DNA of 43,182 nucleotides from a virus, in IMG/VR virus record IMGVR_UViG_3300010151_000026, positions 1-43,182 of that record; one strand, given 5' to 3'. The notes below the pieces were generated by a model. The model saw only the letters and a program-made list of their open reading frames with translations. It was not told where the DNA came from and did not search any database. The position numbers were made by a program, and so were the translations under genes. Below are positions 499-35,772 of this stretch, piece by piece; position 1 is the stretch's first letter; each line of letters begins with the position of its first letter.

Positions 499-727
499 TG
501 ACCCCACACAGAAAATTATTGACTTTCCAAACGCAGATGTAATGACGTTTGATAAGACAGTACGTTCTATTATAGAGAACCTGTTTGATTATGATAGCGA
601 CCACGGATATCTAACTGCTACTATTAATCGTGGTAAAGATAACGAGGCTGAAGTAACTATGCTGTTTAAGATCATCTCTATTAATCAGATCGATCTTGAG
701 AACCTAACTGAAAAGGATGTAGCATAA
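485..727 (+). CDS. Hypothetical small acidic protein, 80 aa
   Basis: Unrecognised soluble protein that starts inside the end of the preceding gene. A GAGGAG sequence about 11 nt upstream can serve as ribosome binding site. It has no cysteine pairs, membrane segments or known motif. The stop overlaps the ATG of the CobS-like ATPase gene (TAATG), so it is co-translated with the CobS/CobT-like pair. It may be an accessory to that pair or an unrelated early protein. Confidence 0.65.
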   Translation: MEDYSDPTQKIIDFPNADVMTFDKTVRSIIENLFDYDSDHGYLTATINRGKDNEAEVTMLFKIISINQIDLENLTEKDVA

Positions 728-1836
728 TGGGAAGCATGAAAAGTATGTATGACCCTGATGTAATTGCCAATATGGTCAGGGATGGTGATGCTGATAACAA
801 GGTAGATCAGGTATCAGATAAGTTAGATGAACTAAATGATATTAAAGACCATCAGTGGAGTACTCAGTCAGGCATTCGGCACACTACCTTTGGTGAGCTA
901 TTCAACTGGAAGCCTACGCTAGTACCTAAGACACTACCTATTGCCATATTCAAGGAGAAGGACTGGCATGAAGCTGCTCGTCCTATGATACCAGAACGTA
1001 ATCCTAATTGGATCTGGCCGAAGCTATCTACTGAGAAGTTTGCTGCTGCTATGTATAGTATGGATACTACGTTATGCTTTGGATTGCAAGGCACAGGTAA
1101 GTCAGACCTAGCTAAGCAATGGGCTGCTCTTACTTGCCAACCATTCTGGAGGATGAACTGTAATGCAGAGACAAGAGACGCACACTTTACTGGCAACGTC
1201 GGCATCGAGTACGATGACGATGGTAATCCGCACATCAAACAGGAAGCAACTGCTCTCACTGATTCACTCCGCTATGGTGGAATCTTCTGTGAGGATGAGG
1301 CGTTCCGTCATTCATCTGCTCTCGTATTACAGTCCCTACGTGAGAAGGCTAGTAGATTCCTACTCTTACCGAATGCTAGTGGGATGAATGCTACTGAACG
1401 TAAGATGGTAGCTCCTATTGGACGGTGGCAGTACGTTATGACTGACAATACATCAGGACTAGGTGATGAGACTGGTACTTTCCAAGCTGAAGTTCAGGAC
1501 TCTTCTACATTGGATCGTATTGATACTTGTATTGAGATGGACTATTTAGGTAAGCCAGAAGAACGTAAGATACTTAATAAGTATGCACCCAATCTTAATA
1601 AGACACAAGTGGACAGTATGCTTGACTATGCTAAAGGTATACGAGCTTCCTTTCGTAAAGGTGAGGTGCTAAGTACCTTCAGTGTAAGAGCACTGCTTAA
1701 TTGGGCAGATAAGATTAGTATGTATAATGATATGGCAACAGCACTTAAGGTCTGCTGGTTTGATAAGCTAGGTGAGAGTGACAAAGCTGTAGCAGGCGAA
1801 CTGTATCACCAAGTATTTGCAACTAACATTAAGTAA
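727..1836 (+). CDS. cobS-like: CobS-like AAA+ ATPase (MoxR/cobaltochelatase type)
   Basis: AAA+ ATPase of 369 aa. Walker A is GLQGTGKS at residues 119-126, and the Walker B region is GGIFCEDE at 184-191. The sensor-1 stretch DNTSGLGDETG followed by STLDR closely follows the ANTxGLGDxTG...DR pattern of CobS, the ATPase subunit of aerobic cobaltochelatase (from memory). In cellular CobNST, CobS and CobT form the ATP-driven ring that lets CobN insert cobalt into the corrin. No CobN is present here. The next gene is CobT-like, nine bases away, so the two probably form a complex. The alternative role is a MoxR/VWA chaperone pair that remodels other protein complexes. The fold is certain; the metal-insertion role is inferred. 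Confidence 0.88.
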   Translation: MGSMKSMYDPDVIANMVRDGDADNKVDQVSDKLDELNDIKDHQWSTQSGIRHTTFGELFNWKPTLVPKTLPIAIFKEKDWHEAARPMIPERNPNWIWPKLSTEKFAAAMYSMDTTLCFGLQGTGKSDLAKQWAALTCQPFWRMNCNAETRDAHFTGNVGIEYDDDGNPHIKQEATALTDSLRYGGIFCEDEAFRHSSALVLQSLREKASRFLLLPNASGMNATERKMVAPIGRWQYVMTDNTSGLGDETGTFQAEVQDSSTLDRIDTCIEMDYLGKPEERKILNKYAPNLNKTQVDSMLDYAKGIRASFRKGEVLSTFSVRALLNWADKISMYNDMATALKVCWFDKLGESDKAVAGELYHQVFATNIK

Positions 1837-1845
1837 GGAGTAACT

Positions 1846-3774
1846 ATGAGCTACTGGGGCAGGAAGGAGTATTCAGAGCTTGGGTTTGATGACACTACTG
1901 CTTCCGTATTGGAAGTAGATCAAGTACAAAATATTATCAAGCGCAGAGCAGAGAACTTTAACGTCATTGTTGAATGGAGTAAATATGTACACACTGCTTT
2001 AACTACAAACATAGCGGATAGACCGGGGTGGTTTAGGGTTAAACTACCTCATATCAGATCACCTATTGGTAGGGAGGATCTGATCCGTACTTATATGTAT
2101 GTAGTACATGAGTGTGGGCATTTGTTACGTCCTAAAGTATGGGACATTAGCATAGCTGCCAATCCCGGCCCTGAGTTACAGTCAATCTTCAATATAGTAG
2201 AGGATGACAGTATGGAAAGGGATGTGGCTAACCGACATCTAGGTGACGCTCGTACTTTAGGTGAAGGTAATGCCATCACGTGTAAGGATGGTGAGCTATA
2301 CTGGAGGGAAGAAGTAGAGAAAGCTAAAGCTCATGGGATAACCTTTACTGAGGAAGCCTTGAAACCTATGATTACTATGGCGATTCAGATTATGGCTCGT
2401 CGTGAATGGGATGGGTGGTCAAGAGAAGCAGCCGACAACTGGCTCAAGGTAATGCCAGAAGAAGGTAGACCTTTAATGGTAGCCCTTGTTAAAGAGGGCT
2501 GGGTAGACAGGTTCCGTGCTACTAAAGATGAGTATGATAGTTGGAACCTAGCTTGTGACCTGTTCGATAGACTATATCCTACCGATGATCCTAATGAGAA
2601 ACAAGAACGGGAGGAAATTCGTGAAGCTGGTAATAAAGGAGAACCAAGAGAGACTGAGGACAATGGACAGGGGGATACCGGGGCTGACGGTAACGATGAT
2701 AACGAAAGCAGGGAAGTATCACACACTGGGCAAGATAAAGAAAGCATTGAAGGACATGAGAACGCTGACGATCAAGGTTACGTTATCAACTGGAAAGACA
2801 TAGTAATGTCTGAACATGACAAGGAAGGGTTCTCATATCCTACTGGTGGAGCAGCCGGAATTACATTTGAAGGTAGACAACCTGATAGTAAGATAGCTTT
2901 CGCACCTGACAGTGAGAACAATGTCATTGACCTAACTGGTAAAGACTGTCGTACTATACTAGCTGAAGCAGATGACCGAGGTTGGGCAAGGAAAGGACGT
3001 AGTGCTAGTAACTTCTTACATAAAAATCACAGTGCTAGAGCATTAGCTAATAAGGTACGACGATATGTGCAATCTCAAAGTAGGACTAAGTTCAGGACAG
3101 ACAGGGAACACGGTACCATTAACAGTCAAGAAGTTACGAGACTCCTTCTTCCACCCATCGACAAGGGTAACTGGAACCGTAGAGTATTCTATGATTATAC
3201 CACTAAGCGACACCTTAACACGGCAGTCCACATACTAGTAGACTGGTCTGGTTCTATGGCTGGTGACAAACAAGTGTATGCTGCTGAAGCAGCGATGAGG
3301 GCAGGTTCTATATTTGCTAAGGCATTACGGATGCCTTGTATGATAACATCCTTCACTACTCACTGTACATTTAGTGACCTAGCTATTATAAAGCACTTTG
3401 ACAAGCCAGCTAGTGATAAGCAAATGGCAGAAAGGTTTGGTATCTGGAGTAGTTGGTCCGGTGGTAACAATGATGCTGATGCTGTACTCTGGGCATACCG
3501 TAGATTAATGGAGCGTAAAGAACCACGCAAGTTACTATTCGTAATGTCGGATGGGGCACCAGCTGGTTCTTATGAAGGACAATCACACGATTGTTTACTA
3601 ACTGCCACCCGGCAGATACAGGACAGTAGTCCAGTTGAATTGTTTGGGCTAGGTATTAAGTCAGACGCAGTCAAGGAATACTATGATAATTATCGAGTAG
3701 TGCATGGACTAGAAGATATTAACAACGCACTATTTGAAGTACTTAAGGAGAGTGTAACTTATGAAAATAGATGA
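1846..3774 (+). CDS. cobT-like: CobT-like protein: HExxH-type N-terminus plus C-terminal VWA domain
   Basis: 642 aa, preceded by AAGGAG. Residues 80-130 carry a zinc-peptidase-like signature (HECGH at 88-92, then a NIVEDDSMER stretch). Residues about 250-315 are a highly acidic low-complexity linker, as in CobT proteins. The C-terminal third is a von Willebrand A domain with an intact MIDAS: DWSGS at 466-470, threonines near 504 and SDG at 568-570. VWA proteins of this type partner MoxR/CobS ATPases, and the CobS-like gene lies directly upstream. Phage CobT-like proteins are known. Whether this one supports cobalamin synthesis or acts as a chaperone or protease scaffold cannot be told from sequence. 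Confidence 0.85.
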   Translation: MSYWGRKEYSELGFDDTTASVLEVDQVQNIIKRRAENFNVIVEWSKYVHTALTTNIADRPGWFRVKLPHIRSPIGREDLIRTYMYVVHECGHLLRPKVWDISIAANPGPELQSIFNIVEDDSMERDVANRHLGDARTLGEGNAITCKDGELYWREEVEKAKAHGITFTEEALKPMITMAIQIMARREWDGWSREAADNWLKVMPEEGRPLMVALVKEGWVDRFRATKDEYDSWNLACDLFDRLYPTDDPNEKQEREEIREAGNKGEPRETEDNGQGDTGADGNDDNESREVSHTGQDKESIEGHENADDQGYVINWKDIVMSEHDKEGFSYPTGGAAGITFEGRQPDSKIAFAPDSENNVIDLTGKDCRTILAEADDRGWARKGRSASNFLHKNHSARALANKVRRYVQSQSRTKFRTDREHGTINSQEVTRLLLPPIDKGNWNRRVFYDYTTKRHLNTAVHILVDWSGSMAGDKQVYAAEAAMRAGSIFAKALRMPCMITSFTTHCTFSDLAIIKHFDKPASDKQMAERFGIWSSWSGGNNDADAVLWAYRRLMERKEPRKLLFVMSDGAPAGSYEGQSHDCLLTATRQIQDSSPVELFGLGIKSDAVKEYYDNYRVVHGLEDINNALFEVLKESVTYENR

Positions 3775-4102: not shown

Positions 4103-4403
4103 TAGAATTCCAATAGCTCCAGCAGACGGTGACATAGAGGAGACAGTTAAGCTGTTCCAGTCCAAGTACCGACAAGTAATAACAGAAAATAATAAGCATG
4201 ACACTGAAGATGAGGGTAGCGGTGGCCCGGTACCACCATGTATTCTACCTAGTGGCTGGATGAAGAGGCTCAAGAAGCCGGGTAAAGTATACGAGTATGA
4301 TAGAACAGAGATACTAAATTACAATGAAATCCAGTACGTTCATGGACCGGAACATGCTAAAGCATGGGCTGATAGGAGGTGGCATGAACGGGATCGGAAG
4401 TAA
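4092..4403 (+). CDS. Hypothetical protein, 103 aa, first gene of the replication block
   Basis: Unrecognised hydrophilic protein with an acidic N-terminal half and a basic, tryptophan-containing C-terminus (HAKAWADRRWHERDRK). AAGGAGAGG at 4080-4088 precedes the ATG. It overlaps the preceding gene by 11 nt and the primase gene by 20 nt. Because it is the first gene after the sigma-E-type promoter and precedes the primase, a replication accessory role is possible, but no motif supports it. Confidence 0.65.
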   Translation: MRTNRIPIAPADGDIEETVKLFQSKYRQVITENNKHDTEDEGSGGPVPPCILPSGWMKRLKKPGKVYEYDRTEILNYNEIQYVHGPEHAKAWADRRWHERDRK

Positions 4404-5235
4404 ATTAGAAGAGTATGTTGATGAGCTAGAAACTGGTGAGACTATACGCATCAATCACAGTAGCTGTCCAGCAGGGGAGGACACCAGACGTAGGCTATAC
4501 ATCACCAAGAAACCTGATGTTGTCCTAGCTTACTGTCATAACTGTGGCGAAAGTAGTAGCAGATACATTAGTTCAAGAGACAGATACCGTGATCATAGAA
4601 GTGCCAAGTGGTTTAAAGAACCAACACCCAGTGAATATGTGGAACCCTTGGTAGTTAGATTTGGAGATGTAAAAAATATACCAGTAGAAGCAGAGGCATG
4701 GCGTATTAAAAGCAAGCTGTCACGCCAACAGTGTGAAGATAATAAGATCTTCTATGTACCTGATAGTGATGCTATTTATCTACCGTTCTTTGCAATGGAT
4801 GGTTTCACTAATGGATACCAACTCAGACCTTTACATAAGCATGGAGCTAAATATATTAATTGTGTTAAGGATAACGATGAAGAACTAGGTGGTATTATAA
4901 GTAATCCAACGCAATCAAATGATACCTTAGTAATAGTAGAGGATCTGGTATCAGGTATACACATTATAGAGGCTGGCTATGATGCACTAGTTAATTATGG
5001 TACTCATGTCAAGCCTACTATTTTGTTCCGTGCTATCCAAGAGAAGTATAAAGACTATGTGATTTGGTTGGATAATGACAACAAAGTAGTAGATGAAAAA
5101 GCAAGACAGATGTACGATATACTACATATGTATAAACATACGGATCAATCTGTACGGTTAATTCAAGACGCTAATGATCCTAAGCACCATAATGAAATTA
5201 ATATCTCAAAGGAGGTAGAAAATGGACGTACTTGA
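4384..5235 (+). CDS. DNA primase with zinc-binding N-terminus and TOPRIM domain
   Basis: 283 aa from the ATG at 4384, chosen because AGGAGG (4374-4379) lies five bases upstream. The N-terminus has H25/C28 and C51-x2-C54 (YCHNCG), a zinc-binding set as in gp4-type primases. The TOPRIM core follows: VEDLVSG around 185-191 supplies the glutamate and WLDND at 228-232 supplies the DxD. It makes RNA primers for lagging-strand synthesis. In T7 the primase and helicase are one protein; here they are separate genes overlapping by 14 nt. Primase activity is predicted with confidence. The partner is questionable because the helicase-like protein next door lacks ATPase residues. Confidence 0.88.
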   Translation: MNGIGSKLEEYVDELETGETIRINHSSCPAGEDTRRRLYITKKPDVVLAYCHNCGESSSRYISSRDRYRDHRSAKWFKEPTPSEYVEPLVVRFGDVKNIPVEAEAWRIKSKLSRQQCEDNKIFYVPDSDAIYLPFFAMDGFTNGYQLRPLHKHGAKYINCVKDNDEELGGIISNPTQSNDTLVIVEDLVSGIHIIEAGYDALVNYGTHVKPTILFRAIQEKYKDYVIWLDNDNKVVDEKARQMYDILHMYKHTDQSVRLIQDANDPKHHNEINISKEVENGRT

Positions 5236-6493
5236 TTTAGATATTCTCACCTTCTTAAGTGACCGTTCTAACTACGAGAAATATGGTGAGGTAGTAGACA
5301 AGGGACTATGCACTAAAGTCAGTTGGCGTTTAGTACAGGACTTCGGTGAGTACTATGAGAATCACCCGGAAGTACAACAGATAGATAGTGACTTCACACT
5401 GTGGTTTAGAGTTGATAAACATCCGGGTATGAAATCAGATGAGGCCGAAAGCTATGGCGCAATCATCAATAACATTCAGAGTAAGAAGGACGATGGGTTC
5501 GGAGTCAGTGATACATTCGTAGATACCCTTAAGATGGCTAGAACAAAGGCTACTATTTTACATCTAACCGATGATCTTGACTCAGGACGTATCAACCTTA
5601 GCGAATTTTCAACTAGAGTATCAGCACTATACGAGCCAATAAGAGCAGGAGATTCTGGTGGGCCTGTTATACTTGACCTTGAGGAACTTGCCAAGAATGG
5701 TAGAGACAAGAACGGAGTATACTGGAGGCTTGAAGATCTCAATAAATCTGTAGGTCCAATACGGAAAGGTGATCTGGTCATCGTTGCTAAACGACCAGAA
5801 GTAGGAGGGACTAGCTTCCTAGCTAGTGAACTGACCTTCATGTTTGAACAGCTAGGAGATAAAGATGCTGTAATCTTTAACAATGAGGAAGCCCCTGATA
5901 AGATTTATACTAGGGTGGTATCGGCAGCTCTTGGTGTAGATTACCGTACTATGATGTCGAATCCAGTACACTATGCCAATGAGTATACTAAGTTTCTTGA
6001 TGGGAGAAAGATTGATATTATCCACAGTACTTCAATGCTAGCATCGGATATTAGGAGACGGCTTGACAGTGGTAACTATGGTTTATTAGGAGTTAATGTA
6101 CTTCTTAAGGTAGGGGTACCCGGACGAATGGAGGACCATGACAAGCTACAGTATGTTGGTGAGGAACTACGAAGCCTTGCATCCGACTACTGTCCGGTCA
6201 TTGGGATTACACAAGCTGATCCGTCAGCAGAAGGAGTAAGATATATTCATCAGGATCGTATCTATAAGAGCAAGACAGCCTTGCAAGGTGAGGCTGATGT
6301 CCTGTTGATGATTGGTATGGACTACGATGAGCCACCTGATACACGGTTCATTCATGTAGCCAAGAATAAGATCCCACCTGCACCATGTACTGATCCAAGC
6401 GTGAGTCATATCATGTCCGAGATTAAGTTCGATGGTCAGCTAGGTAGGTTCAGTAGTAAATTATTTAAGGGGAACAGTCGTGCCTTCAAGTAA
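5222..6493 (+). CDS. DnaB/gp4-type replicative helicase-like protein with degenerate ATPase motifs
   Basis: 423 aa with an excellent ribosome binding site (AAAGGAGG). The C-terminal RecA-like core is recognisable: AKRPEVGGTS at 189-198 in the P-loop position, NNEEA at 220-224, GITQAD with Q331, and SKTALQGEAD near the end. The P-loop lysine is Gly196 (GGG at 5807-5809), and the place of the Walker B aspartate appears to be Asn292 (LLGVNVLLK). Both residues are needed for ATP hydrolysis in DnaB-family helicases. It may be an inactive paralogue, a helicase loader or mediator, or an enzyme using other residues. Position between primase and polymerase fits a replisome role. Confidence 0.82.
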   Translation: MDVLDLDILTFLSDRSNYEKYGEVVDKGLCTKVSWRLVQDFGEYYENHPEVQQIDSDFTLWFRVDKHPGMKSDEAESYGAIINNIQSKKDDGFGVSDTFVDTLKMARTKATILHLTDDLDSGRINLSEFSTRVSALYEPIRAGDSGGPVILDLEELAKNGRDKNGVYWRLEDLNKSVGPIRKGDLVIVAKRPEVGGTSFLASELTFMFEQLGDKDAVIFNNEEAPDKIYTRVVSAALGVDYRTMMSNPVHYANEYTKFLDGRKIDIIHSTSMLASDIRRRLDSGNYGLLGVNVLLKVGVPGRMEDHDKLQYVGEELRSLASDYCPVIGITQADPSAEGVRYIHQDRIYKSKTALQGEADVLLMIGMDYDEPPDTRFIHVAKNKIPPAPCTDPSVSHIMSEIKFDGQLGRFSSKLFKGNSRAFK

Positions 6494-8375
6494 GATAGTA
6501 GAAGATATCTATTTTGATCTGGAAACTACAGCACGTGGTCCAGATAGTAGCCCCGAAGCACACTATAAAGAGAACTATCTTGTAATGTGTGGTTACACGG
6601 CGTGGGGTCATTATAATTATAGTAATACTATAGATGATCTAGTCAGAGAAGTGGAACGTATGTTGCATGATGGTTCACGACCTAGACTAATAGCACACAA
6701 TCTTAAGTTTGATCTTAAGTGGCTACTCCGACTAGCACCAGAAGTACCGTGGCATATGTGTGAGTTTTATTGCACCATGACCGCCGAATACAGGATCAGT
6801 GGTCATCGTACTAAGTTCATATCATTAGAGAAAGCTGCTACTAACTATAGTATCTCATTGAAAAAGACACTAGATCTCGGTGCCCTAATAAAACAAGGCG
6901 TTGATGTCGCTGACATTGATAAGAAAGACTTAAGTAAATATCTAGAGCAAGATGTTAAGCTGCTTCGTGCAGTGTATATAAGCCAAGAGCAAGCTGGTTA
7001 TGATTTTGATTATATCCTACCTTTAGCACGGATGGAATTGAATGGACTACCTCTACATGAGGAAAAAACTAGGGGAGAACTCAAGAGTCTGGCTGGCATA
7101 CATGCCGCTGCTATTAGGGTAGTAGAGTCTAATATCAGATCTAGTCTTGTGTGGTCAGACGGTACTGCTGTAAATAGTGGGGACTTCAAACCACTAGCAC
7201 CCCGTACTATCAGCTACTACCTGACTGGCTATCCTGAGCATGGACTAGGTGGTAAGAATGATAAGAAGCATGTCGTATTTAAGCAAGGGCACGGTCCACA
7301 CCTCGATCAGACAAAGATCAAAAGCGTATGGTCTGCTGAACCTAATCCAAACCTAGGCTACCCTATTAATGTAGGAGTATTAGATGATCTAGTCAAGCAG
7401 TCTCCTGTAGTAGCAGCATACAAAGAAGCGAAAGATGCTAACAAGATTATCAACACTTATCTTATACCCTTCCTTACCGAAGCTAAGCATACTGGTGGTA
7501 CCATCCATCCTAAGCTTAATACTTGTAGCACCAACACGGGAAGACTTAGCTCTAGTAACCCGAACGGACAGAACATACCACCAACAGTACGAAACTTAAT
7601 TAAAAGTACAGAAGGTTACATCTACGAGATCGACTTCGCTCAACTAGAAATGATTGGAGCAGCAACCTTGTCACGAGATTCTAAGATGATCTCTGATATT
7701 TTAGATGGGAGGGACATCCACTTTGAATCAGGGAAGGAGGTATTTCAATGGAAGACTCCAGCAGATATGACCAAGGAAGAACGACGTACTGTGAAGGGTG
7801 TAAACTTCGGACTGCTATATGGTGGTGGGGCAGCAGGAATCAGTGAGAATACTGGTGCTAATAAGGCTACTGTTAAGAAGCTAATAGCTTCCTTCTATGA
7901 AAGGTATCCGGGTGTTAAGGACTGGCAAGATGAAGTTTATCAGGAGATCACTAGGTGTCCTTGGGTAGAAGGGCATAAGGATGGCGAATCTTATCGAGCT
8001 GCTATTTGGACAGCTCCAGCTGAACATGGCAGACGACGGTATTACTTTGAGGAATCAGCCAGTCCGTTATGGAAACAACGACAAGATGGCAGGACGTTTA
8101 GCTTCAAGCCTACCGAAACTAAGAACTATCCGATTCAGGGATTCGCAGGGGGTGACATTGTGATGTGTGCTCTTAGTGTTCTTGATGCAGTACTAGCCTT
8201 CACGGATGCTAAACTACGTATGACAGTACATGACTCCATCGTAGTAGACTGGAGCAAGGATAAAGAGAGAGACCTAGAACATATTATGAACAAGGTGTGT
8301 GAGTTGGTACGCACCGAACTGAGTATACCAGTGCCTCTGGTATATGATATAGAAGCCGAAGTGTATTGGCTATAG
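6480..8375 (+). CDS. polA-like: Family-A DNA polymerase with 3'-5' exonuclease
   Basis: 631 aa from a GTG at 6480, preceded by AAGGGG and overlapping the helicase gene by 14 nt. Exonuclease motifs are D13-x-E15, HNLKFD ending at D78, and Y154-x3-D158. Polymerase motif A is EIDFAQLE (D385). Motif B runs R435, K439, F443, Y447 (KGVNFGLLYG). Motif C is VHDS (H584, D585). No 5'-3' nuclease domain is present, as in T7 gp5. Phe443 corresponds to E. coli Phe762, the residue used in viral ecology to group phage PolA types. All catalytic residues are present, so this should be the active replicative polymerase. Confidence 0.95.
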   Translation: MPSSKIVEDIYFDLETTARGPDSSPEAHYKENYLVMCGYTAWGHYNYSNTIDDLVREVERMLHDGSRPRLIAHNLKFDLKWLLRLAPEVPWHMCEFYCTMTAEYRISGHRTKFISLEKAATNYSISLKKTLDLGALIKQGVDVADIDKKDLSKYLEQDVKLLRAVYISQEQAGYDFDYILPLARMELNGLPLHEEKTRGELKSLAGIHAAAIRVVESNIRSSLVWSDGTAVNSGDFKPLAPRTISYYLTGYPEHGLGGKNDKKHVVFKQGHGPHLDQTKIKSVWSAEPNPNLGYPINVGVLDDLVKQSPVVAAYKEAKDANKIINTYLIPFLTEAKHTGGTIHPKLNTCSTNTGRLSSSNPNGQNIPPTVRNLIKSTEGYIYEIDFAQLEMIGAATLSRDSKMISDILDGRDIHFESGKEVFQWKTPADMTKEERRTVKGVNFGLLYGGGAAGISENTGANKATVKKLIASFYERYPGVKDWQDEVYQEITRCPWVEGHKDGESYRAAIWTAPAEHGRRRYYFEESASPLWKQRQDGRTFSFKPTETKNYPIQGFAGGDIVMCALSVLDAVLAFTDAKLRMTVHDSIVVDWSKDKERDLEHIMNKVCELVRTELSIPVPLVYDIEAEVYWL

Positions 8376-13585: not shown

Positions 13586-13795
13586 ATGAATAGTAGTGAA
13601 GCCGACGCTGTTGGTGCAAGAGGTCTATTAAATCTTGAAAGTACTACAGCTGCCGAATTTCTTCAGCTTATATTTGGTATGCTGGAGGCTACCGGATTAG
13701 ATGGTACAGGAACAGTAATTGAATTTGAAGATATAGATGGTCTTGCTAAATCTGTGTGGATAGAGATATGGAACGATGATCTTGAAATACAGTAG
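13586..13795 (+). CDS. Hypothetical small acidic protein, 69 aa
   Basis: Well placed start with AGGAGG upstream. The protein is soluble and acidic (LEATGLDGTGTVIEFEDIDG, WIEIWNDDLEIQ) without recognisable motif. Its last 20 bases overlap the sigma factor gene, whose own ribosome binding site is poor, so translation of the sigma factor may depend on this gene. It might be a leader or a partner (for example an anti-sigma protein), but no family similarity supports the latter. Confidence 0.65.
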   Translation: MNSSEADAVGARGLLNLESTTAAEFLQLIFGMLEATGLDGTGTVIEFEDIDGLAKSVWIEIWNDDLEIQ

Positions 13796-14366
13796 TCTCT
13801 CGACAGACGCTCAGTTGGTCCGACGGGTTCAGAAGGGCGACAAGGGGGCGTTCGACTTGTTAGTATTGAAATACCAGTACAAGATTACCAAGTTGATAAC
13901 GCGATATATACGAGATCCAGATCAGGCTTTGGATATTACACAGGAAACTTTTCTCAAAGCTTATCGGGCACAGCCACGGTTTCGTGGCTACAGCTCGTTC
14001 TATACGTGGCTCTACCGGATCGCTGTTAATACAGCCAAGAACTATTTGACTGCTACTAAGAGACGACCACTAGATCTAGAGTTAAACCTACAAGAGCCTG
14101 AGCAATATGATCTCCATGCGAAACTAAAGGAGACAGATACACCAGAAGGGCTGACACTTAGTAAGGAATTACACGCTACTCTCAAGGAAGCAATAGAGGC
14201 TCTGCCGGAAGCTCTTCGTAAGGCACTACTGCTACGTGAACTCGATGGTATGAGTTACGAAGAGATAATGCAGACGATGAATTGTCCGGCAGGGACCGTA
14301 CGATCAAGGATCTACAGAGCTAGGAACGCTATAGACAAAAAGATTGGGAGCTATTATGAATGGTAA
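13776..14366 (+). CDS. rpoE-like: RpoE-like ECF sigma factor
   Basis: 196 aa, strikingly close to gammaproteobacterial RpoE (191 aa in E. coli). Region 2 spans about 25-95, with the promoter-melting stretch FYTWLYRIAVNTAKNYL at 75-91. Region 4 spans about 138-190, with LRELDGMSYEEI and the -35 recognition helix GTVRSRIYRAR at 173-183, nearly identical to E. coli RpoE as I recall it. It should bind host core RNA polymerase and recognise GGAACTT...TCTAA promoters. Two exact such sites lie at 4043-4070 and 41642-41669. It sits near the end of the rightward operon downstream of the first site, so it should stimulate its own expression. It overlaps the previous gene by 20 nt. Probably captured from a host genome. 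Confidence 0.93.
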   Translation: MILKYSSLSTDAQLVRRVQKGDKGAFDLLVLKYQYKITKLITRYIRDPDQALDITQETFLKAYRAQPRFRGYSSFYTWLYRIAVNTAKNYLTATKRRPLDLELNLQEPEQYDLHAKLKETDTPEGLTLSKELHATLKEAIEALPEALRKALLLRELDGMSYEEIMQTMNCPAGTVRSRIYRARNAIDKKIGSYYEW

Positions 14367-14628
14367 ACGAGCACGTAGAATACGTAGAGGTATACAGTAC
14401 AAAAAAAGCCCGGACCATTTAGTGGAACCGGGCGGACTACGAGAAGAGGATGGTAAATTGTACTTTAAGTTTGCTAAAAATGACCATGCGAATCAGTATC
14501 GCTGGTGGAAGAAGGGAGTAGCATGTGGTAAGATTGCACCTGAGCTAGTAAACCACCTAGGACATCGACAAGCACCTCATCATCAGACAACTCAGGATGG
14601 CCTGAATAGTGGAGAAGAAAATGAGTAA
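14356..14628 (+). CDS. Hypothetical small basic protein, 90 aa, last rightward gene
   Basis: ATG at 14356 with GGGAG six bases upstream, overlapping the sigma gene by 11 nt. The N-terminus is very basic (MNGKRARRIRRGIQYKKS) and there is a WWKKG stretch in the middle. The gene runs over the leftward terminator (14401-14433), and its second half is antisense to the leftward metallopeptidase gene. The good start signal argues for translation, but the overlap leaves some doubt about the C-terminal half. No family was recognised; nucleic acid binding would fit the charge. Confidence 0.5.
   Translation: MNGKRARRIRRGIQYKKSPDHLVEPGGLREEDGKLYFKFAKNDHANQYRWWKKGVACGKIAPELVNHLGHRQAPHHQTTQDGLNSGEENE
14401..14433 (-). 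terminator. Intrinsic terminator ending the leftward late operon
   Basis: Read leftward, GCCCGG (14433-14428) pairs with CCGGGC (14413-14408), with a further inner 3-bp CCA/TGG pairing. The hairpin is followed at once by seven T residues (14407-14401). It lies 40 nt after the last leftward gene and inside the opposite-strand gene at 14356-14628. In the rightward direction there is no T tract, so it should stop only leftward transcripts. Confidence 0.85.
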
Positions 14629-14821
14629 CCTCGTGCCAATAAGTGTGGAGTACAACATCACGAGTGCATCCGGTGGGGAAGAGACGCACCGTATTAGTGC
14701 CAAAGTCGCTGTCTCCGAACTTCCCCACATCACTAGCATGTTCAATCACTACTTTGATCTTATGTCCGAGGAGATTGAAGCTATGAGGCAGTCCTAGCTC
14801 AGCATGAGTCCAACGCTTCAT
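14474..14821 (-). CDS. Predicted small zinc metallopeptidase (HExxH), last leftward gene
   Basis: 115 aa from the ATG at 14821, which lies inside the end of the outer spanin gene. The motif YWHEVTH (H63, E64, H67) is followed by DDEVLVDVLGGLLAQV, whose acidic residues could supply the third zinc ligand. Small phage proteins with this WHE-x2-H...DDE layout are common and are annotated as metallopeptidase-like, though their substrates are unknown. No signal peptide is seen, so it should be cytoplasmic. A strong terminator follows 40 nt downstream. A longer in-frame extension upstream of 14821 is possible but would overlap the spanin gene further. Confidence 0.75.
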   Translation of the reverse strand: MKRWTHAELGLPHSFNLLGHKIKVVIEHASDVGKFGDSDFGTNTVRLFPTGCTRDVVLHTYWHEVTHFLLHYSGHPELSDDEVLVDVLGGLLAQVQSYHMLLPSSTSDTDSHGHF

Positions 14822-15050
14822 CGTGGGCTTTGATTCTTTCTTCAAGGAGTCTTGCGTATTCTTTAAGGGCGAGGTCGTTAATGGTAAACTTCCAGAGAAC
14901 CCCTCTTTCGACTGATTGCTGCTCATCTACTGTAATCTCCACCAGAATAGGACGTTCTGGTAAACAAAGGGGTGGTTCTGGTGGGACGGTTGCACAGCCG
15001 CTACCAATCATTAGGGTTGCTAAGACTATCAACCCCTTTAAACTTTTCAT
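14799..15050 (-). CDS. Outer-membrane spanin lipoprotein (Rz1-like)
   Basis: 83 aa from the ATG at 15050, with GGAG eight bases upstream. A short lipoprotein signal (LKGLIVLATLMIGSGC) ends at a candidate lipobox cysteine, followed by a proline-rich start (TVPPEPPLCLPERP) typical of Rz1. It then has a longer globular or helical C-terminus. It begins within the end of the inner spanin gene (50-nt overlap in another frame), the classic Rz/Rz1 arrangement. The pair bridges inner and outer membranes and fuses them at lysis, so the host has a Gram-negative envelope. Confidence 0.75.
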   Translation of the reverse strand: MKSLKGLIVLATLMIGSGCATVPPEPPLCLPERPILVEITVDEQQSVERGVLWKFTINDLALKEYARLLEERIKAHDEALDSC

Positions 15051-15646: not shown

Positions 15647-15841
15647 TTAATCTTCCTCGTCTTTATTGACGTTATCAAACCAATCGTAGAGCTTACTGGC
15701 GATGTATATACAACCCACAATAATACTCACAGTCTGTGCTAAAGCGTCGATGATTGGTTGTAGTTCTACAAACCAAGCCCAACCCGATAGACCTAGGCTA
15801 GTCATCGCTGTCATATCTGATTTCAAACCCTCTATCCTCAT
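15647..15841 (-). CDS. Small membrane protein, 64 aa (lysis block, holin candidate)
   Basis: The ATG at 15841 overlaps the endolysin stop (ATGA), so translation is coupled. One long hydrophobic stretch (IIDALAQTVSIIVGCIYIAS) is flanked by a tryptophan-containing amphipathic N-terminus and an acidic C-terminus (DNVNKDEED). An internal ATG at 15814 is a possible second start, a dual-start arrangement seen in some holins, but no strong ribosome binding site distinguishes them. Confidence 0.55.
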   Translation of the reverse strand: MRIEGLKSDMTAMTSLGLSGWAWFVELQPIIDALAQTVSIIVGCIYIASKLYDWFDNVNKDEED

Positions 15842-16245
15842 CTGTCGCCTGTTTCCATCTGTTTAGCTAGCGTCCTTGCTCGTTGACCAACTTGACTAGC
15901 CCATTTTGAGTCCAGCATTTGTACTGCTGCCTCTTTCCAATCACCATCTCTAATAGCAAGAAGCATTTTCTTGAAACTTGCTGTACGTGATGGTCCCATA
16001 TTATATACCATTTCGACAAGAACATCTTTCCTAACGTCACTCAGTAATTCATACTCAGGGAAACGAGTTGCTGCTCGTTGTGCTTCTTCAACACCTTTCT
16101 TAAGCCATGTATCTCCAAGCTCCTTGTCAATACAAAGCTCTTGTAAGTTCGTGCCGTATCCAATAGTCCAGATACCTTCGCTATCTTGATAAGCCTTATC
16201 ACGCCACCCTTCATGCCGACGGATACTAGCCATCAATTCACTCAA
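15838..16245 (-). CDS. Endolysin, GH24 (T4 lysozyme-type) muramidase
   Basis: 135 aa from a TTG at 16245, chosen because AGGAG lies six bases upstream; the ATG four codons later is too far from it. The catalytic triad has the exact T4 lysozyme spacing: E12 (RHEGWRDKAY), D21 and T27 (EGIWTIGYGT). It cleaves the MurNAc-GlcNAc bond in peptidoglycan. There is no N-terminal signal or anchor, so it needs a holin to cross the membrane. The single catalytic domain is slightly shorter than T4 lysozyme (164 aa). Confidence 0.92.
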   Translation of the reverse strand: MSELMASIRRHEGWRDKAYQDSEGIWTIGYGTNLQELCIDKELGDTWLKKGVEEAQRAATRFPEYELLSDVRKDVLVEMVYNMGPSRTASFKKMLLAIRDGDWKEAAVQMLDSKWASQVGQRARTLAKQMETGDR

Positions 16246-17833
16246 AAGCCGCTCCTACTGGACTGTCAGCAATTGCTTTACTAACATCATCTAGGAAGGG
16301 TGTACTACCCATACGTGCTCCGCTAGCTGTTGTAGGTATCTCTTTAAAATCTTTTAGTTCAAAGATTTCTCGGTAAGCTTTATCCATACTCTGTGCCAGC
16401 CGTGCTCTAATCTCTCCAGCATTATTCCAGTAACGCTGGAAAGCCATCTCTCTCATATGTTCTGGACCATTCTGTATGACACTAGTAATCTGCTCCTCAG
16501 TAGCCAGCCCGTTCTCCACTAGTTCGCTGAACAAAGTACGTATACGGCTCATGTGCTGCCGCCTTTGGGAAGTAGCAGCCTGTAATAAGTCCTCGGCAGG
16601 TGATCCAAATTCATCCATGAGCCTTACCATTTCCCTAGCACTCGCTACTGCCGGGCGCATTGCCTCCTTAAACCTTGCCGAACCGAGCTGGCCTATATAC
16701 CCGTGGACATCAGATAAAACTTCTCTGATAGCATCGTGACTATCCCACGAAAGTCTGTCACGATGGAAGTCTTCCGGATCTAAAGCACCTTCTTGAAACT
16801 TACGAATCAGCTTCTGGTCACGTACTGAATCCGACCAATCATCTATCAACTTCGTGTATTTGTCAGGGTTGGAGCCAAAGGCCAGTCCTTCTATATTATC
16901 AGTCATGTGCTGCACTTCGTGTAAGATAGTACTTCTGATCCAAGCTAAGTCCTTCTCATATACCCTGATCTCCATAGTATTTGGATCAAACGAACCCCCA
17001 GTTTCGGGGCTACCAAGAGAAATACTCTGATCCTTATGCCGTCTTGCTGTTATAAAGATACGATGATTACGCATCTGAGGATAGGCTACAAACAGCTCAG
17101 AATCGTCTATTATATCTGCCATACGGAATTCTATGGCGTGTAAACCGGGATTGTCAGGAACCTTGAAGTCAAGATATTGCGGATCTTCTAGGTTTGAAAG
17201 ATTCATTTTGAGATCTCTATCTACCTTCCAGTATTTCCAACCGTCAGGACCATCGTCATACATCCCAGTTTTACGGAATACATCTAATGGATCGTCGCCC
17301 TTAGCTATCATTTTCTTAGCGTCTTCAAGTATGTCCATCTTACCAAGGTTACGTATACCTAGCATCGCCATACTACCAGCCTTGACGATTTCAGCAGGAC
17401 CGGGAGCCAGTAGATCCATAAGCAGCTGTCCTCTTTCCATAGGACGTACACCTGTCTTCTCGCGCAACCTCTCTGTAGTAAACGGTACTTCAGGACGACG
17501 AGCTGCCATTAAATAAGCAAGCACATTACCACCCATTTGCAGTAAATCACCAACTCCACCTGCTACAGTAACACCGACATTAGCTATGTCTTCACCAATA
17601 GAACGTCGATCTCCCCTGAACTGGTTATAAAGCATTTCTGCTCTTTGTTCTTCGTCTGACCCACTAGAAGCCATTTCTACTAAAGGCTGTTGAGCAATAG
17701 CAGACATAGCCTCACGCTCATGCTGTCTATCCAGACTATTAAGTTCTGCCCAATCAGCAGGATTATAGCCACGGTCAACTACTTCACCGTCGATAACGTC
17801 TGTCTCTGGTAGTGGTGTGGGTTGCTCAGCCAT
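16238..17833 (-). CDS. Internal/ejection virion protein with HExxH peptidase-like domain
   Basis: 531 aa. The middle carries SILHEVQHMTDNIEG-like chemistry: STILHEVQHM places H305, E306 and H309, followed by E315 and a GSNP turn. This resembles the metallopeptidase modules of large polyvalent phage proteins (HE-x-QH...EG-A-x-GN), as I recall them. A short glycine-rich hydrophobic stretch (VGVTVAGGVGDLLQMGG) lies near residue 90. It is the last of four consecutive internal-protein genes before the endolysin. It could cut peptidoglycan peptides or host proteins during DNA entry, or process virion proteins. Confidence 0.6.
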   Translation of the reverse strand: MAEQPTPLPETDVIDGEVVDRGYNPADWAELNSLDRQHEREAMSAIAQQPLVEMASSGSDEEQRAEMLYNQFRGDRRSIGEDIANVGVTVAGGVGDLLQMGGNVLAYLMAARRPEVPFTTERLREKTGVRPMERGQLLMDLLAPGPAEIVKAGSMAMLGIRNLGKMDILEDAKKMIAKGDDPLDVFRKTGMYDDGPDGWKYWKVDRDLKMNLSNLEDPQYLDFKVPDNPGLHAIEFRMADIIDDSELFVAYPQMRNHRIFITARRHKDQSISLGSPETGGSFDPNTMEIRVYEKDLAWIRSTILHEVQHMTDNIEGLAFGSNPDKYTKLIDDWSDSVRDQKLIRKFQEGALDPEDFHRDRLSWDSHDAIREVLSDVHGYIGQLGSARFKEAMRPAVASAREMVRLMDEFGSPAEDLLQAATSQRRQHMSRIRTLFSELVENGLATEEQITSVIQNGPEHMREMAFQRYWNNAGEIRARLAQSMDKAYREIFELKDFKEIPTTASGARMGSTPFLDDVSKAIADSPVGAAFE

Positions 17834-32426: not shown

Positions 32427-34240
32427 TATAATTCTCCTGCTGCCATAGCTTCTTCTTCCACATCAGCCATCTCATTAAATACTTGTTGTCTACCTGATAG
32501 CTCTTCAGCTACACTCTGTTGGGCTTGCGTAGCAATACTCTGTGTTTCCTGTGACTCAGCGACTCTGATATTGTCAGCCACCAGATCAAACTTACCAAGT
32601 CCCAGAAGCTCTTCTGCAAGCTCAGCCATCTTCTTACCAGAGATGTGAGTACTAACAGCCGGGTCAGCGTAGATAGCAGAGCTAGCGAGTCCCATCAGAT
32701 TCTGCATGATCTGTGCTTGTCTACTAAAGTGACGAGCACCGATAGGACGAAGCTTACCCTTTTTAGTCAGCTGCTCCGGTCCAATCTTTAGGAACTCTTC
32801 TACACCAAAATCTTGGTCAACTGACTTTACCAGCTCTATGCTAGTTATATTTTCTCTGGCTGCTGACAACATCTGATTCAGTAACGGTTCAATAAACATC
32901 TCTTCAAAGTGCTGAATCTTCTGTTGGAAGATACGACCAGCAGCATTCTCCAGTGCTTGAACCTCAAAGGCAGTCTTCTCACCCGGTGTACGAATACCCA
33001 TAGCCTGTCTAGGTGCTCCTGCCAGCTCTTCCATGTTCTGCATCAAACGGTCCATCTGGAAGTCAGCATTCAAAGCAGTAGCATCTGGACGGAGTACCTG
33101 AACATCTGCATCAACATCAAGGAAGATCCGTTCATCCGGCCCCCACTCAAAGTCTTCAGCTTGACCTCGCACTACCACGATGGGGTGTGCAATCTGATCG
33201 AATACGTCAGCCTTCAAGTTCTCAAGATGATCCAGACGATACTGCATACCTACTAGATTTGCTAGAGGAGACATAGACCAGAGATTGTCTGGGCGATCAC
33301 GCCAACCAACGTGTTCCTTATTGGAACGTCCAATCCAAGTCTTAATAGGCTCGTCATATACTGTATACTTACGATCTACTACGATAATACGTCGATTCGT
33401 TTTAACCTCTCCCGTTTCCGTCGAGAAGGTATCGCCTTCATACTCCAGTACTTCAATCATACCGGATGACATGTAAGAGCGCATATTGCCAAAACCATCT
33501 ACAATGAGACCTTCGGCTTTATCCATATCGGAGTCTCCGTAGTTTGATAGTTCATTACGAAGACGTACACATTTTTCGACGGCAGTATGTGCCCACTCAT
33601 AACCGGGGATATTCTCGGCTGCGTACTTAAGCGTTCCAGCAGAAACCAAGGTTCGAGTAACTTTACCTGAATCTTTGAAACTGGAAGATGTCAGATCGAA
33701 CTGGATATCGTATGGACTGATGCGCTGTAGCTTTGGTCCTATATAAGTATTATAACTCATACCGTCAGGATTTGTGTGGCTATCAGACAGGTATGTTACT
33801 TCACCAAAGGCGTTTCCTGCATCAATGTAGTCAAGGAGCAACTGTGAAACAGTCTCCTTGAAATCCGACTCACGGATCTTTTGTTTTATGTAGGCTTCAA
33901 TAGTGCGAGCCGTTTCACGGTCTACACCAGCTTGACTCTCCGCTTCCCACTTAAACCAATCGTCGTGAGGAAATAAAGCAGCCATGTAGTTAGCATGGAG
34001 ATTATCTCGGATCTGACAGATCTTAGGGATAGATGTTTTATTCTTCCACGGAAGCTGAGAGTTTGTAGTCTTAGTCGTATCCGTCTGAAAGATATAGTTT
34101 CGTAACTCTTTCGTTTCAGCTCGGATAGTAGCACTATTATTACGCCAGTCCGTATACCGCTGAGATACGAAGGCAGCGATATGATCGCCACTATCCAAAA
34201 GGTTTCTTATTTCTTGAACTGCTTTTGCAACTCTCGGCAT
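32426..34240 (-). CDS. Portal (head-tail connector) protein
   Basis: 604 aa, with GGAGGA upstream of the ATG. The N-terminus (RYTDWRNNSATIRAETKELR, NLHANYMAALFPHDDWFKWE) and the stretch around MSPLANLVGMQYRLDHLENLK, read here in part, are typical of podovirus portals. The C-terminal third is a long helix-rich barrel or crown (EEMFIEPLLNQMLSAAREN). It forms the dodecameric DNA gate and packaging motor base. It overlaps the terminase stop by one base and lies upstream of the capsid block. Confidence 0.85.
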   Translation of the reverse strand: MPRVAKAVQEIRNLLDSGDHIAAFVSQRYTDWRNNSATIRAETKELRNYIFQTDTTKTTNSQLPWKNKTSIPKICQIRDNLHANYMAALFPHDDWFKWEAESQAGVDRETARTIEAYIKQKIRESDFKETVSQLLLDYIDAGNAFGEVTYLSDSHTNPDGMSYNTYIGPKLQRISPYDIQFDLTSSSFKDSGKVTRTLVSAGTLKYAAENIPGYEWAHTAVEKCVRLRNELSNYGDSDMDKAEGLIVDGFGNMRSYMSSGMIEVLEYEGDTFSTETGEVKTNRRIIVVDRKYTVYDEPIKTWIGRSNKEHVGWRDRPDNLWSMSPLANLVGMQYRLDHLENLKADVFDQIAHPIVVVRGQAEDFEWGPDERIFLDVDADVQVLRPDATALNADFQMDRLMQNMEELAGAPRQAMGIRTPGEKTAFEVQALENAAGRIFQQKIQHFEEMFIEPLLNQMLSAARENITSIELVKSVDQDFGVEEFLKIGPEQLTKKGKLRPIGARHFSRQAQIMQNLMGLASSAIYADPAVSTHISGKKMAELAEELLGLGKFDLVADNIRVAESQETQSIATQAQQSVAEELSGRQQVFNEMADVEEEAMAAGEL

Positions 34241-35772
34241 TACATTATTCCTCCGAATCTGCTATGTGTTACCACCTTCCTGTCTCTACTATGCAGTCGC
34301 ATACTATTGATTGGAGGTTTTAGGATACCACACACAGATTCAAAGGCATCCTTTATGTCATCGTTTGGCGGATTATACATTATGAGTTCCTGCTCTAGAT
34401 CTTCGCAGTGCCCACCTCTATAGTGCCATATTGTATAGTTTTCGTATCGTGGCTTTAGAGTAGCGTGTATACGCTCCTGTTTTGTGCCCATGTTTCTGGT
34501 TGGTCTATAATCTTCGACCGATAGTCCCAGCCCTTCTCTACGAATCTCATCTTTGATGTGCTCAGCAATCACTGCTTGCCCACCAACAACTTCAGCTCTC
34601 ATCTTTTTAAAACCCCACTTTATGTGGGCATCCAGAACCATCTGGAAGTAGTCACTAACTTTATTAGTGCGTGTACGTTTAACATCAAGTACGTAGATAT
34701 AACCGTCTGCGTCTATACCTACAACTACTAAGGCTGTGTAATCAGCTGTAGCTTTAAGGCTAAACGCAAAGTCTATCGCAGCGAAGACGTTTAGAATCTT
34801 ACCGTTGTAAAACCAACGGCCATTCTCATACTTGAGATACTTCCGATCATAATGCTGGAAAAGACTAGGGTCGATAGCAGCTTCGCCGGGGTCGTTCGGG
34901 TTATTATAATACTGAGAGTAAAACTGTGTTCTATCTAAGTACTTAGCCCGTTTCTGCGACAAGATCTGAGTATTGAAACCAAACCAGCGACCATCGCCTC
35001 GTTGCATTCTCGGCCAAAGGAACTCCCCTGTTGCATCGCCCATGTTCTCAACTTCTTTCTGCCATATTTCATAGACTGGCTTGGACTCGATCACCTCCCC
35101 GTCTTTATTGTAGACCTCTTCATTTACGGCCATTAATGTACCGTACAGATCACGGGGGTGATAGCGAGTACCGACAATCCACTCCTTCGCGTCTGTGGTT
35201 TCGATACTAGCTAGTAGTGAGTACTGTCTTTCAACTTTCTCACGACCTTCCCTTGTATAGGCATTCTCATTTACAACAACGTCGTCAAGCACTGCTATAT
35301 TACAGTGTAGACCTGTAATAGAAGTAGTCAGTCCAGCGGTGAATACCGTTGAGTCTCTGACCCCTTCTGCTAACCGTTTTGGGTGGTCAACCTGAATCTC
35401 AGAGTTAGTCCACTTAGCTCGCTTACCTTCGTCTATGTGAACCATCTCAGACCAGTACTTACGATACCTAGCAGACGTTAAGATGTCTTTGACAAACTGT
35501 AACTGTTTCTCTGCTAAACCAGATGTAGCACTGATATACAAGATAGTTACTGCCGGATTGCGTGTAATCTCCCACGCAACCCGGTAAGCAACCATAGTAC
35601 TTTTCTGGTGGTCACGAGGCAGAAGAACCATCTGATGCTCTGCTGCTTCGGGACGACACCACCACTTGATAAGATCTTCGTGGCACTGCCCTAGCACACG
35701 GTGCGGGGCAATGAGTCGGATAAAAGTCAGCAAGTCTTCTTCTGCTGCCTGACGAATTTGGTCCTTCGTCAA
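34240..35772 (-). CDS. terL: Terminase large subunit
   Basis: 510 aa from a TTG at 35772, chosen because AAGGAG lies seven bases upstream and no ATG is suitably placed. ATPase motifs are LPRDHQKST (51-59) for Walker A and IAVLDDVV (159-166) for Walker B. The C-terminal RNase H-like nuclease begins at AAIDFAFS (D334) with a second aspartate near 344. It cuts and pumps the concatemer into the prohead. It is separated from the small subunit gene by four fibre-type genes, an unusual arrangement. Confidence 0.92.
   Translation of the reverse strand: MTKDQIRQAAEEDLLTFIRLIAPHRVLGQCHEDLIKWWCRPEAAEHQMVLLPRDHQKSTMVAYRVAWEITRNPAVTILYISATSGLAEKQLQFVKDILTSARYRKYWSEMVHIDEGKRAKWTNSEIQVDHPKRLAEGVRDSTVFTAGLTTSITGLHCNIAVLDDVVVNENAYTREGREKVERQYSLLASIETTDAKEWIVGTRYHPRDLYGTLMAVNEEVYNKDGEVIESKPVYEIWQKEVENMGDATGEFLWPRMQRGDGRWFGFNTQILSQKRAKYLDRTQFYSQYYNNPNDPGEAAIDPSLFQHYDRKYLKYENGRWFYNGKILNVFAAIDFAFSLKATADYTALVVVGIDADGYIYVLDVKRTRTNKVSDYFQMVLDAHIKWGFKKMRAEVVGGQAVIAEHIKDEIRREGLGLSVEDYRPTRNMGTKQERIHATLKPRYENYTIWHYRGGHCEDLEQELIMYNPPNDDIKDAFESVCGILKPPINSMRLHSRDRKVVTHSRFGGIM

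Follow-up and report, generated by a model that had tools for sequence, protein, structure and literature searches.

A clade of phage DnaB-like helicases with deviant Walker A and Walker B motifs and a proposed relocated P-loop lysine

The window, the whole 43,182-nucleotide stretch of viral DNA analyzed here, encodes a DnaB-like protein with glycine in place of the Walker A lysine, asparagine in place of the Walker B aspartate and a lysine at the first position of the P-loop. Judged from sequence, the protein probably still works as a replicative helicase, its ATP site having been rewired. The gene, which the earlier note had described as intact and preceded by a ribosome binding site, and the three substituted sites are located as follows.

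5222..6493, + strand, DnaB-like helicase gene with deviant Walker A and Walker B; intact open reading frame of 423 amino acids by translation
5210..5215, + strand, Shine-Dalgarno AGGAGG, 6 nt 5' of the helicase ATG
5789..5791, + strand, Lys190 (AAA), first position of the P-loop, proposed relocated lysine; Lys in 22/22 clade members, Ala, Gly or Met in 90/90 canonical relatives
5807..5809, + strand, Gly196 (GGG), where the canonical Walker A has lysine; 22/22 clade members have Gly and 90/90 canonical relatives have Lys
6095..6097, + strand, Asn292 (AAT), where the canonical Walker B has aspartate; 22/22 clade members have Asn and 90/90 canonical relatives have Asp

The product matched phrog_19 (DnaB-like replicative helicase) with an E value of 3.8e-28 and Pfam DnaB_C with 36.4 bits against a cut-off of 27, and only DnaB-type families matched it in the PHROG and Pfam profile searches. 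An AlphaFold2 (AF2) model was built from 19 clade sequences (mean pLDDT 83.9, pTM 0.62). Its best PDB matches were DnaB proteins spanning residues 1-417, including E. coli DnaB 7t22_A (Z 29.1, rmsd 4.1 Å over 345 aa) and DnaB 6kza_B (Z 28.6, rmsd 2.6 Å over 243 aa), and T4 gp41 and T7 gp4 were also found among the structural matches (8dtp, Z 27.1; 1e0j, Z 26.0). The DnaB_C profile, the RecA-type fold and the DnaB N-terminal domain are all present, and according to the model the DnaB architecture extends over the full length of the product, N-terminal domain included. The DnaB-type assignment made earlier from the letters is borne out by profile and fold. The combination of terminase sequence family and nuclease domain which characterizes phage large terminases was not found in the product, and the window encodes its own terminase elsewhere.

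34240-35772, the window's own terminase, separate from the helicase gene

The P-loop around Gly196 reads KRPEVGGTS, within VAKRPEVGGTSF, and Asn292 lies inside LLGVNVLLKV. Alignment with canonical relatives placed Gly196 in the Walker A lysine column and Asn292 in the Walker B aspartate column, and the PDB DnaB sequences and the AF2 model concur on these positions. Letters and coordinates given for both residues in the earlier note are correct in translation. Its statement that both core residues are lacking is right by position, but the P-loop still has a lysine, Lys190, which it had missed. This residue sits six residues upstream of the vacated position 196, and the motif shifts from canonical (A/G)xxxxGK(S/T) to KxxxxGG(S/T) in the clade. 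The Walker A GxxxxGK[ST] with canonical lysine and the Walker B aspartate, both expected of SF4 helicases, are absent from 22/22 members, and therefore the protein is better classed with a deviant sub-lineage than as a standard DnaB. The deviant Walker A pattern, with lysine at motif position 1 and another residue at the canonical position, was observed in all 22. In the AF2 model, strand beta-1 comprises residues 185-190 with Lys190 as its last residue, the next helix begins at 196 and the Walker B strand terminates at 292.

The clade, collected by viral-contig scans, comprises 22 full-length members including the window, plus near-copies and partial copies. The full-length members are 30-100% identical to the window protein and all come from uncultured phages. 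Whether relatives share the substitutions had been raised as a check; the Lys190/Gly196/Asn292 (K/G/N) triple is present in every full-length member and in none of the 90 canonical relatives. The alignment split into 23 K/G/N sequences versus 87 canonical relatives with [Ala/Gly/Met]190/Lys196/Asp292, with no mixed cases; three further canonical phages obey the same rule, and the extended comparison stands at 22 full-length members against 90. All three sites vary in synonymous codons across the clade, Gly196 being encoded by GGC (14), GGT (5) or GGG (3) and Asn292 by AAC (14) or AAT (8). Pairwise dN/dS was about 0.09-0.11 for close clade pairs (window against L002, 0.121/1.40; window against L003, 0.238/2.09), showing that purifying selection acts on the gene. 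One clade copy, at L025:6001-7250, carries an internal stop near residue 185 that breaks the gene. The genes flanking it are as similar to the window, in percent, as those of L014, and the break is either an assembly error or a real mutant.

In a tree computed without the trait columns and including 18 K/G/N rows, the K/G/N state was found on a single branch (support 89/74), with 17 of the 18 rows in a 100/100 group. The placement of L026 is unsure, its grouping with L118 being compatible with the data (p-AU 0.40). The stem branch of the clade is long, with 1.79 changes per column. Repeated independent origin of the triple was rejected, as the tree prefers a single one, and because the state arose once, finding the three changes together does not amount to repeated evidence for their coupling. 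When the proteins of the window, L023 and L026 were searched against a phage collection by tblastn, no cultured relative with the motif appeared among the matches listed (of 331-449 matching records); all those listed were below 35% identity, and those fetched were canonical. A scan of a bacterial genome collection found no relative of the clade helicase.

Beyond the three substituted sites, the remaining active-site residues were compared between the clade and its canonical relatives. The roles of the first three features below were assigned by alignment only.

5885..5887, + strand, Glu222, counterpart of the catalytic Glu, E343 in T7 gp4; retained in 22/22 clade members
6212..6214, + strand, Gln331 (ITQAD), sensor-like residue; retained in 22/22 clade members
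6362..6370, + strand, Lys381-Asn382-Lys383 (KNK), equivalent of the inter-subunit finger motif; K381 and K383 in 22/22
6131..6136, + strand, Glu304-Asp305, acidic pair after Walker B; E304 in 21/22 versus Arg in 89/90 canonical relatives, D305 in 22/22 versus mostly Thr
6266..6268, + strand, Lys349 (YKS); Lys in 21/22 clade members versus Asp (78), Asn (9), Gly (2) or Glu (1) in canonical relatives

The catalytic glutamate, the sensor Gln/His and the inter-subunit basic finger of SF4 helicases are, on this assignment, all present, and Thr197 and Glu193 are also invariant across the clade. Near the site, the charge changes relative to canonical relatives are D295 to Leu, R304 to Glu, T305 to Asp and D349 to Lys. 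Of the residues that could provide an acidic group instead, we infer that Glu304 and Asp305 are the strongest candidates. The earlier note had named another lysine and another acidic residue in these places as grounds for giving up its reading; Lys190 supplies the lysine at sequence level, and for the acidic half there are only the candidates Glu304/Asp305.

The genes on either side of the helicase are those of a replication cluster.

4324..5235, + strand, primase-like protein, directly upstream and overlapping the helicase start; phrog_47 DNA primase, E 1.4e-13
6480..8375, + strand, family A DNA polymerase (PolA), directly downstream; Pfam DNA_pol_A, 4.8e-53

In the primase, the zinc-ligand-like Cys/His and TOPRIM Glu/Asp positions are conserved in at least 23 of 25 sequences. 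The primase-helicase-PolA order is the same in all clade loci that reach the polymerase. Loci which are long enough carry AAA, VWA, primase, helicase, PolA, SSB-like, nuclease and RNR genes in this order, or part of the series; in that of L026, the primase, helicase and PolA genes and a weak RNR match were all that was observed. The AAA and VWA genes of the window (727-3774, + strand) encode an AAA ATPase (CbbQ/MoxR-like, phrog_249) and, after it, a CobT-like VWA protein. Such a pair is found near the replication genes in most clade loci and also in ICP2 (CobT, CobS), and is probably a MoxR-VWA pair rather than one for cobalamin synthesis. A second helicase of the phage was also considered. 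No second DnaB_C gene was found in the window and 10 relatives, whose contigs may be incomplete, and Helicase_C, AAA_30, DEAD, UvrD and ResIII gave nothing above cut-off in the window or in seven relatives 34-49 kb long, which may likewise be incomplete. A sub-threshold DEAD match was observed in a 527-aa frame of G003. With nothing above cut-off beyond the single DnaB_C gene, this candidate was dropped.

Other genes of the window were also observed. A sigma-factor-like protein (13776-14366, + strand; phrog_1740, E 6e-34) is also found in L005 and L011, at the other end of the replication cluster. A small ORF on the minus strand (14474-14926) has a zinc-metalloprotease-like HEVTH motif and a weak match to phrog_1233, of unknown function. 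A 531-aa protein (16238-17833, minus strand) with a metalloprotease-like ILHEVQH motif adjoins a lysozyme-like ORF (15838-16245).

Among known systems, the closest viral model is the DnaB-like helicase of the Vibrio phage ICP2 and Zobellviridae (PHROG 19), the top BFVD match with E 2.5e-32 over the full-length fold. It shares the NNEE, QAD, QGEAD and AKNK motifs, the primase-helicase-polymerase neighbourhood and an upstream CobS/CobT-like AAA and VWA pair. Unlike the clade, it has a canonical Walker A (ARPNAGKTT) and Walker B (DQLWK), at 26-27% identity. The SF4 hexameric helicases, bacterial DnaB (E. coli, Geobacillus), T7 gp4 and T4 gp41, are alike in fold over 1-417 and in the catalytic glutamate and glutamine/sensor positions; the clade differs from them by the Walker A lysine at the first motif position and by asparagine for the Walker B aspartate. 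No description of a replicative helicase with the K/G/N arrangement was found in the open-access literature searched.

The arrangement of the P-loop resembles that of the deviant Walker A terminases Mu gp28 and lambda gpA, DNA-acting motor ATPases in which the lysine lies six residues before a vacant canonical position, giving KxxxxG(non-Lys)(S/T). The signature lysine of MinD/ParA was considered as a counterpart of Lys190 and dropped, as it accompanies the canonical lysine and occupies another motif position. Terminases are packaging motors of another ATPase branch, without homology to the helicase clade beyond the P-loop fold. A passage of PMC7363723, citing Mitchell and Rao 2004, gives K64 of Mu gp28 as proposed to complement L70, at the same -6 offset, and a passage of PMC5445408, citing the same work, describes the canonical lysine of terminases as replaced by an upstream one. 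Lambda gpA, unlike HK97, is without lysine at the expected position, while the extra upstream lysine K57 of the HK97 terminase is essential for packaging and ATPase activity (PMC9410871). By this analogy the clade P-loop is predicted to work like a deviant terminase P-loop, in a protein that is no terminase. Only half of the change has this precedent, because the HK97 terminase retains its Walker B acids (PMC9410871). For the other half, Asn169 of the D6E terminase hydrogen-bonds an inner-shell water of Mg2+, though at another motif (PMC5727402), and by analogy an asparagine can hold metal-bound water. Further likeness was found with the SAMD9 family, in which glycine for the Walker A lysine gives GGT/S; unlike the clade, these are STAND-like signalling NTPases and the upstream compensating residue proposed for them is histidine (PMC5445408).

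The product would be a ring-shaped replicative helicase that has the DnaB fold and belongs to the phage itself. Its phosphate-binding lysine would have moved from residue 196 to Lys190, which may contact the phosphate, while Thr197, Glu222, Gln331 and the KNK finger would keep their usual jobs. Asn292 would take over Mg2+ or water coordination from the Walker B aspartate, possibly helped by Glu304-Asp305. Together with the primase and PolA encoded next to it, the protein would still bind and hydrolyze NTP and unwind DNA. A working helicase is favoured because the residues of hydrolysis are invariant and the operon is conserved. Counted for it are the K/G/N split, the synonymous codons, dN/dS near 0.1 and the invariance of E222, Q331, K381, K383, T197 and E193, along with the predicted DnaB fold, the operon order, the single helicase found in the genomes searched, the upstream-lysine precedents and the case of Eurotiomycete Kti12 K14L, which still hydrolyzes at high ATP (PMC7363723). 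The main argument against it is the lost Walker B aspartate, without parallel in the terminase precedent. Asparagine for this residue normally abolishes activity in RecA-fold helicases. The fuller proposal, a lineage of working hexameric replicative helicases in which the lysine shifted, the Walker B aspartate became asparagine and the charges were swapped (R304E, D349K, T305D), has about an even chance of being right.

The reading put forward earlier, a catalytically dead DnaB-like ring, is weakened and now appears unlikely. Such a ring would keep its fold and its primase and DNA contacts, might still bind nucleotide, and would serve as scaffold, helicase loader or inhibitor, leaving host DnaB to unwind the phage DNA. 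This reading would agree with the loss of both the Walker A lysine and the Walker B aspartate in every member, with the further site changes D295L, R304E and D349K, and with the long stem expected after a change of function. It gives no known reason for the invariance of Glu222, Gln331 and the KNK finger or for the gain of a P-loop lysine where relatives show none, and the operon position and dN/dS about 0.1 suit a core replication enzyme; no other helicase was found in the window and the relatives searched. Quite improbable is an ATP-binding switch, a nucleotide-gated clamp or primase platform which would bind NTP via Lys190 and the P-loop backbone and hydrolyze it very slowly or not at all. 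The retained P-loop glycines and Thr197, the neutralized Walker B aspartate and the SAMD9 GGT/S proteins, for which binding without hydrolysis was proposed (PMC5445408), are consistent with it, but the KNK motif and the residues of hydrolysis, Glu222 and Gln331, do not vary in the clade, and the genomes searched yielded no other helicase for unwinding. Apart from the one broken copy in L025, nothing speaks for sequencing error, misassembly or a decaying pseudogene, the chance of which is negligible because the 22 members, among more than 20 separately assembled contigs with the same residues, share Gly196 and Asn292 by differing codons under purifying selection with low dN/dS.

In P-loop motors, the lysine of Walker A and the aspartate of Walker B are regarded as all but indispensable, and enzymes are judged dead by them. 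If the proteins of this natural, long-standing clade are working helicases, a DnaB-type motor can, like terminases, have its P-loop charge relocated. The clade supplies about 20 distinct sequences as a test set along with a precise mutational prediction, and it cautions against calling such proteins inactive from motif loss.
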